Source of the DNA: Terriglobus sp. TAA 43
Lineage (GTDB): Bacteria > Acidobacteriota > Terriglobia > Terriglobales > Acidobacteriaceae
Reading direction: 5' to 3'
Assembly (NCBI RefSeq): GCF_000800015.1
Contig: NZ_JUGR01000001.1
Location: 3,348,001-3,412,000 of the forward strand
DNA: 64,000 nt
The notes below the pieces were generated by a model. That model saw only the letters and a program-made list of their open reading frames with translations, made no database searches and was not told where the DNA came from. How positions within the stretch are numbered: position 1 is the first letter of the stretch; every line of letters begins with the position of its first letter. Made by a program: the position numbers and the translations under genes. This document shows, one piece after another, positions 40,534-44,047 of the stretch.

Positions 40534-40866
40534 ATGCAGAATTCCGTCCCCCAGTCCGTAACGGTTGCCATCTACGACCAGAACTACCATCTGCGCGGCA
40601 TCGATCCTCAGCATATCGAGGCGCTTTCGCAGCTTGTGGACAGCAAGATGCGTGCGGTGTCGTCGCAGGGCGCTACCGTGGATTCGTTGCGTGTAGCCGT
40701 GTTGGCAGCGTTGAACATTGCAGATGAGTTGATGGAACTGCGCGAGCGTCACCGTGAGCTGCTGGATTCGCTGGATCACGCGGAGACGGCAAACCGGCAT
40801 CGTGCGCATTCGCTGGCATCCATGCTGGATGAAGCTTTGCGTGATGAGTATCGCGTGGCCGTGTAA
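40534..40866 (+). CDS. zapA: Cell division protein ZapA
   Basis: 110 residues. Matches the ZapA pattern: SVTVAIYDQNYHLRGIDPQH, AALNIADELMELRERHRELL and a C-terminal helix for dimerisation. ZapA bundles FtsZ protofilaments at the division site. Start ATG 40534. It follows the coiled-coil gene and is followed by a terminator. Confidence 0.88.
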   Translation: MQNSVPQSVTVAIYDQNYHLRGIDPQHIEALSQLVDSKMRAVSSQGATVDSLRVAVLAALNIADELMELRERHRELLDSLDHAETANRHRAHSLASMLDEALRDEYRVAV

Positions 40867-41830: not shown

Positions 41831-42877
41831 GTGAAAATTTTCTCCTTTGTTCTGCTGCTTGTTATGGGTTCTGCGTGCGTTGCGCAGACGTCTGCCCCTG
41901 CCTATGAAAACCTGCCTGAGTTCCAGAAGCTTCGCGCTGAGGCAAAGGACGAGCAACGCCTGAATAACAAGATTATGTTTGCGCCTGGCACATGGAAGAA
42001 GGCGAACAAGGTGGCGGGTGGCCACTGCATGGAGTGTTTGGAAGGCGTGTTCACTTCGCAGTTACGACTGGGTGAGTACAAAGATGCGCTGAAGGCTGCG
42101 AAGGAGTGGGATGCTGCAAGCGAACAGCCGCTTGATCATGTGCGTGCTGAGCTTGCTGAAGGGCGCGTAGCGATTGCTATGGTCGACAGGAACAAGCCGA
42201 ATATGGCTGTGCTGCAGGATGCCCATGCGGAGTTACAGAAGGCTGCCGCTGCGCATGCCACGGCTGCTTACTTTTACGACGGTCAAGTGCTGGCGCTGAT
42301 GAAGCAGGATGCGGATGCGGGTGCGGCCTTTGGTCAGTACGCGAAGTTGACGCGGAAGGATGATGCGCTGCTGTCGCGCGCGACGTACTTTTCCAGTCAC
42401 CCTGAGATGGCGCGCGAAAAGATGGCGCCTGCGGTATTGGTAAACACACTCGGCGGCAAGCGATTCAACCTGGATGACATGCATGGCCGTGTGGTGTTGA
42501 TTGATTTCTGGGCGACATGGTGCGGTCCGTGTAAAGAAGAACTTCCACACATGAAGAAGCTGGCGGAAGCTTATAAAGATGAACCGCTCGAAATCATCAG
42601 CATCTCCTGGGACTCCGACGCCAACAAATGGCGGCAGTTCATTGCCGACAATGGCATGAGTTGGAATCAGTACCTGGATGCGGATCATAGTGTGACGAAG
42701 ATGTTTGGTATCGATGCCATTCCGCATTACTTCACGATTGATGCCAACGGTGTGTTGATGGCGGAGAATGTGGGATCAGGATCGAACATTGATGGGCGCA
42801 TTCGAAAACTGGTGGCCCAGGCGAAGGAACAAAAGCAGTTAGCATCCACGGGCAGCGGACCATCTCCAGGACAGTAA
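41831..42877 (+). CDS. TlpA-like exported thioredoxin-fold protein
   Basis: 348 residues. GTG 41831 gives a clean signal peptide (KIFSFVLLLVMGSACVAQ); a GTG at 41795 would add 12 residues. Residues from about 30 to 200 are a helical region with TPR-like organisation and a CMEC pair (GGHCMECLEG). The C-terminal 140 residues form a thioredoxin fold with WCGPCK in VVLIDFWATWCGPCKEELPH, and end with FGIDAIPHYFTIDANG. It probably reduces periplasmic disulfides or cytochrome c cysteines. It precedes the candidate RNA and the Lgt-like gene. Confidence 0.85.
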   Translation: MKIFSFVLLLVMGSACVAQTSAPAYENLPEFQKLRAEAKDEQRLNNKIMFAPGTWKKANKVAGGHCMECLEGVFTSQLRLGEYKDALKAAKEWDAASEQPLDHVRAELAEGRVAIAMVDRNKPNMAVLQDAHAELQKAAAAHATAAYFYDGQVLALMKQDADAGAAFGQYAKLTRKDDALLSRATYFSSHPEMAREKMAPAVLVNTLGGKRFNLDDMHGRVVLIDFWATWCGPCKEELPHMKKLAEAYKDEPLEIISISWDSDANKWRQFIADNGMSWNQYLDADHSVTKMFGIDAIPHYFTIDANGVLMAENVGSGSNIDGRIRKLVAQAKEQKQLASTGSGPSPGQ

Positions 42878-42931
42878 ACGCAAGGGGCATTGGGGCATTT
42901 TTGCTGGCACAAAATGGTTTTGTTACTCAAC

Positions 42932-42960
42932 TTGCAAACCCTTCGCACTCCGCGTAGCAT
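42932..42960 (+). promoter_or_regulatory. Promoter of the candidate structured RNA
   Basis: TTGCAA (42932-42937) is 17 bases from TAGCAT (42955-42960), a fair sigma-70 pair. The transcript would begin near 42967. It is independent of the TlpA-like gene, whose stop lies 54 bases upstream. Confidence 0.55.
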
Positions 42961-42966
42961 CTGCCT

Positions 42967-43210
42967 TTAGATGACCGACCTGCAAAGCAGGTGGGGGAAC
43001 AACGTCGGTTGAACCAACATTCATTGAACAGGGGTTCGGCTCGTATACATGGTTCGGTGTGCAGTGTCCGCCAGTCCGGAATGCCTAAAGAGCCACGGCT
43101 GAATCCCACCGCTTATTAGCGGGTTCACCGGCGCTTCCAACACGGCCCAGTGGGTCGGTCCTCGCTTGATTGAAACGGTGGCTCTTTCATGGAGCCACCG
43201 TTTTGTTTTG
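42967..43210 (+). ncRNA. Candidate structured non-coding RNA of unknown family (6S-like?)
   Basis: A plus-strand transcript of about 240 bases with its own promoter and terminator and no credible reading frame. GACCGACC (42973-42980) pairs perfectly with GGTCGGTC (43153-43160), closing a roughly 190-base domain. Inside, GTGT and CGCC (43064-43072) can pair with GGCG and ACAC (43130-43143), and CCGCT-TATT-AGCGG forms a local hairpin. ACCGAC can instead pair with GTCGGT (43004-43009) and ACCTGC with GCAGGT nearby, so two folds compete. Size and closing stem suit 6S RNA, but the two alternative 5' folds also suit a riboswitch-like element. I could not match a family. Confidence 0.55.
43175..43208 (+). 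terminator. Terminator of the candidate RNA
   Basis: ACGGTGGCTC (43175-43184) pairs perfectly with GAGCCACCGT (43192-43201) around a seven-base loop, followed by TTTGTTTTG. It lies 99 bases before the Lgt-like gene, so the RNA ends before that gene. Confidence 0.9.
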
Positions 43211-43306
43211 CCGAATGCATGTCATGGTTTCGGGGAATTGCTGTGGTGATCTTTCCAGGTTGAGAACTGTGAAGAGATTCCCAAGTATTCTTAAAGACAG
43301 CGTCTT

Positions 43307-44047
43307 ATGCACCCGCATCTCTTCCGTATCGGCCCGGTGACTGTCCCCACGTTTGGGGCGATTGCTGCATTGGGGCTGGTGTTGGCGATTTCGCTGGCGG
43401 CGCGTGGTGCGCGGGTGATGCGGCTGAATGAGGATGCCGTGTGGAACCTGTGTCTATGGATGGCTGCAGGAACCTTGGTGCTGTCGCGACTGATTATTGT
43501 GGCGCAGGTGTGGAAGTCGTTCGCGAAGTATCCGCTGTACATTTTGACGTTGCCCACGGTGACGAAGTGGGGATTGTTGCTGGCGCTGGTTAGCGGCGCG
43601 GTGTACATGCTGGTCAAACGGATGCCGTGGTTGCGCACGCTGGATGCGCTGGCTCCTGCGGCGCTGTTGTTGCAGGCGTTTCTGCACCTCGGGACACACT
43701 TCTCTGGCGATGATCTTGGATTGGCCACAACGTCGCGGTTGGGTGTGGTGTTTGGCGATCAGGGATATCATCCTGTTGCGTTGTATTCCGCGGTGTTGAC
43801 GCTGGTGGCGTGTGCGGTGGCGTTTGTGTGGCTGCATCGTGAGTCGCAGCCGGGCGAGACGTTTGGGCTTGGGCTGACGCTTGCTGCACTGATTCGGTTT
43901 TTTGTGGATACACTTCGTCCGGGCTGGGTTCTGCCGGAGACGATGCTTGGCAACCTGCTGCGGGTGGACCAGCTTGTGCTGATGTTGCTGGCGGTGGGGG
44001 GGTTGAGTTTTTTCTTTCAACGAAAGGGCGTGCGTTATGCCCAGTAA
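43307..44047 (+). CDS. Lgt-like (prolipoprotein diacylglyceryl transferase-related) membrane protein, probably degenerate
   Basis: 246 residues with about seven membrane spans. The order of motifs follows Lgt: HPHLFRIGPVTVPTFGAIAALG at the start, TLVLSRLIIVAQVW (for GARLGYVL), a central helix at TVTKWGLLLALVSGAV, LHLGTHFSGDDLG (for GRIGNFINGELWG), YHPVALYSA (for HPTQLYE), and a C-terminal membrane helix. In true Lgt the SFHGG histidine and the arginine of GRxGNFIN are key; here both are missing. It may be a paralogue with another role. No other Lgt lies in the window. The 3' end overlaps the pseudouridine synthase gene. Confidence 0.75.
   Translation: MHPHLFRIGPVTVPTFGAIAALGLVLAISLAARGARVMRLNEDAVWNLCLWMAAGTLVLSRLIIVAQVWKSFAKYPLYILTLPTVTKWGLLLALVSGAVYMLVKRMPWLRTLDALAPAALLLQAFLHLGTHFSGDDLGLATTSRLGVVFGDQGYHPVALYSAVLTLVACAVAFVWLHRESQPGETFGLGLTLAALIRFFVDTLRPGWVLPETMLGNLLRVDQLVLMLLAVGGLSFFFQRKGVRYAQ

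Follow-up and report, generated by a model that had tools for sequence, protein, structure and literature searches.

A canonical 6S RNA (SsrS) gene between TlpA-like and Lgt-like genes of a Terriglobus-like acidobacterium, with a predicted collapse of its central bulge

The locus and the identity of its RNA

6S RNA is a well-known bacterial RNA that mimics an open promoter and restrains RNA polymerase. Here, we report on an intergenic stretch of Terriglobus sp. TAA 43, between a TlpA-like gene (thioredoxin-like, Redoxin/AhpC-TSA) and an Lgt-like gene, within a window of 64,000 nucleotides (positions 3,348,001 to 3,412,000 of contig NZ_JUGR01000001.1, assembly GCF_000800015.1; coordinates below are those of the window, i.e., of the whole stretch analysed). 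The gap is 429 bases long (42878-43306) and holds a promoter, a structured RNA, and a terminator hairpin (Table 1). The original prediction had taken the RNA to be an undescribed one whose size and closing stem recall those of 6S RNA. We conclude that the sequence is almost certainly a canonical 6S RNA (SsrS) gene, present as a single chromosomal copy; it is a real RNA gene of a known kind and not a new type of RNA. This identity is based on family membership by sequence and structure, on covariation, on promoter conservation, and on synteny; transcription, polymerase binding, and the synthesis and release of a product RNA would be expected by analogy with other bacteria.

An Rfam scan of 901 bases (42600-43500), covering all 4227 families with an E threshold of 10, matched the 6S family RF00013 with 53.7 bits (gathering score, 46.4) over model positions 1-187 of 187, and this is the one match of the family in the whole genome. 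The only other match in the 901 bases was one microRNA at chance level (E 7.3), and neither Acido-1 (RF01686) nor Acido-Lenti-1 (RF01687), which had been suggested together with 6S as families to compare, was found there at that threshold. Among 41 genomes, i.e., this one and 40 relatives, RF00013 matches 21 (16 over the cut-off). An evenly drawn phylum sample of 197 Acidobacteriota genomes gave matches in 136, of which 122 were over the cut-off. The family is thus common across Acidobacteriota, and Rfam's model already recognises it. The 6S likeness seen in the original prediction is therefore borne out, by this match as well as by the covariation and the reverse search described below, and the word "undescribed" fails, because the RNA passes Rfam's own cut-off and belongs to a family found in most genomes of the phylum sample.

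The structure was derived from an alignment (A2) of 20 acidobacterial copies, 18 of them distinct, in which the copy from another family (L003, genome G040) was kept despite the poor alignment of its 3' part and a copy near a contig end (L021, genome G018) was left out. RNAalifold on A2 gave the form expected of a 6S RNA, a rod of about 180-200 nt with a closing stem, a lower stem, a large central bulge, an apical stem, and a small hairpin in the 3' bulge strand. Counted over the distinct rows, pairing holds in 95.6% of 971 cells, and two-sided changes are seen in 25 of 54 pairs (shuffled mean, 10.0). None of 500 shuffles reaches any of the five covariation measures, with the reservation, from the tool's own warning, that related sequences can exceed shuffles; slid controls pair 35-44%, a comparison that favors the structure because the structure came from the same alignment. 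With its terminator hairpin, the region 42960-43210 has a predicted folding energy of -113.6 kcal/mol, whereas shuffled sequences average -84.1 (z -5.46; 0/200 shuffles as good). The closing stem had been predicted with eight perfect pairs, GACCGACC at 42973-42980 with GGTCGGTC at 43153-43160; these are present and extend to a longer stem whose covariation, proposed earlier as a check, is given in Table 1. The nested pairings inside it, also predicted, are present as well.

A lineage model, R1, was built from A2; the tool describes the E-values of R1 as rough. In the reverse search this model recovers E. coli K-12 ssrS over its full length (30.6 bits, E 2.4e-6, 65-kb search). R1 detects exactly one copy in each of 25 same-family genomes, six of which were outside its training set (G005, G006, G007, G012, G018, and G020), the copy of G018 being cut by a contig end; it also matches G040, from another family and part of the training set. 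G011, G004, G014, and G018 share the genus of Terriglobus sp. TAA 43. What weighs against the 6S identity is that the RF00013 scores are modest: the Rfam model misses five of the 25 same-family genomes (G005, G006, G007, G012, and G020), where R1 finds the gene at E below 1e-34, and it has no match in three further same-family genomes of the phylum sample (G073, G154, and G217). R1 recovers copies that RF00013 misses within the same family, and a well-supported 6S RNA gene is added.

The picture is different in a neighboring family of the same order (f2), in which R1 found no copy in 14/14 genomes (G025-G038), nor did it find one in G039; RF00013 recognised no 6S RNA in the same 14 f2 genomes, seven of which are at least 90% complete (the lowest of the 14, 54%). 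When 12 of these 15 genomes (11 of f2 and G039) were rescanned, RF00013 matched 0/12 and R1 gave one weak match of 50 bases (E 0.05). The 6S RNA of f2 may have been lost or have diverged strongly. An exact search of named genomes with the conserved 6S core returned five contigs, three labelled as uncultured Terriglobus, one as an Acidobacteriaceae bacterium, and one as a Rhodanobacteraceae bacterium; this last contig (L053), with its exact Terriglobus-like core, is perhaps a mis-assigned metagenome contig.

Promoter, terminator, and alternative readings of the locus

Flanks, neighbors, product RNA, and bulge folding were compared over 25 loci, i.e., the 24 complete same-family loci and G040, with G018 left out. 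A promoter layout of TTGNNN, a spacer of 17-18 bases, and TAGC(A/T)T, 9-12 bases before the RNA, is kept in 24/24 same-family loci with a complete copy (TAGCAT exact in 23, TTGC in 23), and of 4800 shuffled upstream stretches 4 contain it; G040 has just a looser match at a different distance. A simple consensus scan listed neither the promoter nor the terminator of the 6S gene, the former because the scan requires 9 of the 12 consensus bases and the promoter has 8, the latter presumably because the hairpin stem absorbs the T run. The terminator hairpin is visible by eye in just two of the 25 flanks (G000 and G003), and several other flanks have a T-rich stretch directly after the closing stem. 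In genome G012, the downstream flank (L036) seems, by eye, to carry a tandem duplication of the 3' end of the 6S gene together with its flank. The original prediction had listed a -35/-10 pair with 17-base spacing, a strong terminator, the 429-base gap, and zapA about 2 kb upstream, and all of these are confirmed; its view that a free RNA is more likely than a leader is supported as well.

Table 1. Coordinates of the 6S RNA gene, its parts, and its neighbors in the window
Feature	Position	Strand	Remarks
6S RNA (SsrS)	42973..43163	+	about 187-191 nt, ends approximate; RF00013 42974-43160; R1 210.8 bits over 42973-43163, a score on one of R1's own training sequences; covariation
Closing stem, 5' strand	42973..42983	+	11 pairs; 100% of cells paired; 6/11 pairs changed on both sides
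Closing stem, 3' strand	43150..43160	+	pairs with 42973..42983
6S RNA gene promoter	42932..42960	+	TTGCAA 42932-42937, 17-base spacer, TAGCAT 42955-42960
Terminator hairpin	43172..43204	+	14 pairs in the fold, then TGTTTT
Predicted product RNA	43004..43018	-	copied from 43018 leftwards, 5'-GUUGGUUCAACCGAC; probable start
Second TTGAAC, 5' central bulge	43024..43029	+	with product RNA bound, GAAC is predicted, by constrained folding, to pair with GTTC within 43123-43127
zapA	40534..40866	+	PF05164 E 6.7e-17; ends 2.1 kb upstream; ThuA-like and TlpA-like genes between it and the 6S RNA
Lgt-family gene	43307..44047	+	downstream; PF01790 E 9.6e-25

Two mutually exclusive pairings of the 5' end, ACCGAC with GTCGGT or with GGTCGGT, had been read earlier as a possible switch. 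The match of the strings exists; as a switch the pairing with GTCGGT is not supported, and we rejected it. Its pairing probability in the full RNA is 0.0 (to four decimals), and the helix is absent from folds of the first 40, 50, 60, 80, and 100 nt. Across the alignment, 85.2% of the cells of this helix are paired (shuffled mean, 81.7%; 10/500 shuffles reach the value; slid controls, 7.7-57.1%), and its two-sided changes and covariation score are unremarkable, being reached by 202 and 69 of 500 shuffles, respectively. Two central pairs are broken in five and six of the 18 distinct sequences, whereas the closing stem is paired throughout. Most likely, the alternative pairing follows from the similarity of two stems.

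These results bear on the two other ways in which the locus might be read. If the RNA were an undescribed structured RNA, 6S-like in size and closing stem only, one would point to the RF00013 score, which is just 7.3 bits over the cut-off; the match spans the model from end to end, however, the reverse search recovers E. coli 6S RNA, the template bases align with those of E. coli, and the zapA synteny is common to E. coli and Acidobacteriota, which makes this reading very improbable. Even slighter is the chance that the RNA serves the Lgt-like gene as a leader or riboswitch, with the 5'-end alternative pairing as its switch. The 6S locus and the Lgt-like gene do share a strand, the 6S locus being upstream, an Lgt match falls in the 1.5-kb flank of 17 of the 25 loci (this one included; some of the flanks end at a contig end), and the alternative helix is paired slightly more than in shuffles, as given above. 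But a strong hairpin with a T tract separates the RNA from the Lgt-like gene, the Lgt match begins more than 1 kb downstream in G004, G011, and G005, it is missing within the flank in 8/25 loci, and the helix that would have to act as the switch is the one predicted not to form. The canonical 6S RNA gene remains the reading that we adopt.

Product-RNA template and the predicted collapse of the central bulge

Position 43018 aligns with nucleotide 44 of E. coli 6S RNA, the known start of the product RNA in that species. Around this position TGAACCAA is present in 25/25 loci, the next base being C or T in all 25 and the one after it A in 23. The product RNA predicted for this locus begins GUUGGUUCA, and across the loci the predicted product RNAs start with G/A-UUGGUUCAA and have GG at positions 4/5 in every case; a 5' central-bulge template that yields GG at positions 4/5 or 5/6 of the product RNA is a mark of 6S RNA, and this sequence feature is found in 25/25 loci. 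GG at positions 4/5 is described for E. coli, A. aeolicus, and R. sphaeroides in PMC8414754.

By our folding models, a collapse of the central bulge would be a likelier switch than the pairing of the 5' end. TGAAC occurs at the position of the second TTGAAC (Table 1) in 20/25 loci, and when nine template bases are held unpaired, a helix of at least four pairs joins the 5' bulge strand to the freed GUUCA strand in 22/25 loci. Several observations weigh against the collapse. The helix is weak, i.e., when the bulge strand of this RNA is shuffled, four pairs are reached in 33/500 cases; with 14 template bases held, it disappears from six of the 22 loci (G016, G012, G005, G010, G007, and G020); two loci (G022 and G024) form it with nothing held, and three (G023, G021, and G019) never do. 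In the folding, template bases are held unpaired in place of a modelled product RNA, and the loci are related to one another.

The following course of events may be pictured. A housekeeping-type promoter of its own would drive transcription of the gene, and the RNA, about 190 nt long, would fold into a rod with a central bubble and mimic an open promoter. As in other bacteria, it would bind the RNA polymerase holoenzyme of the housekeeping type, and transcription would be lowered as growth slows. Once nucleotides return, the polymerase would copy a short product RNA from the bubble, with the start most likely opposite 43018, and this copying would open the lower stem. The freed GUUC strand is then predicted to pair with GAAC of the second UUGAAC in the bulge, whereupon the bubble would collapse and, by analogy, the polymerase would be released. 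We tentatively suggest, as a proposal that we hold with less than even confidence, that 6S release in Acidobacteriaceae runs on a direct repeat, i.e., that two UUGAAC copies flanking the product-RNA start compete for one GGUUCA strand and that about nine copied bases flip the open bubble to a collapsed rod, and, as part of the same proposal, that family f2 (0/14 genomes with the gene) may have lost its 6S RNA.

Neighboring genes and comparison with known systems

The location of zapA, a gene often found upstream of 6S RNA genes, links the locus with that of E. coli K-12, where zapA lies directly upstream of ssrS. Among 16 acidobacterial loci, i.e., the 11 best-scoring and five others of the 136 genomes matched by RF00013, zapA (match at E up to 0.01) is upstream on the same strand in 12; by family, it is so placed in 3 of 4 loci of this family and in 9 of 12 of other families. 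In the 1.5-kb flanks of the 25 loci, zapA is found upstream in 11 and TlpA in seven. Further upstream in this window is a weak ZapB match (28.7 bits, under the Pfam cut-off of 31.5). A gene order of ZapB-ZapA-6S is described for beta- and gamma-proteobacteria in PMC7641849, and the string "Acidobacteri" is absent from the main text of that article. The zapA-6S neighborhood extends to Acidobacteriota. Literature searches on 6S RNA listed no title about an acidobacterial 6S RNA, which does not prove that none exists.

Acido-1 and Acido-Lenti-1 are acidobacterial RNAs too (listed in PMC2864571), but neither model matches the region scanned here. The likeness to E. coli ssrS is far-reaching: the two share the length, the rod with a central bubble, the position of the template, the GCCUAAA-like and GGUUCA segments, and zapA upstream. 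They differ in that the sequence is divergent, zapA lies 2.1 kb off with two genes between, and an Lgt-like gene rather than fau lies downstream. Collapse of the central bulge is ascribed to B. subtilis 6S-1 RNA. For A. aeolicus 6S RNA, a central-bulge-collapse helix is proposed in PMC4227106. The helix suggested here, predicted from folding alone, would be of the same kind as in these two RNAs, with the 5' bulge strand pairing with the freed 3' strand.
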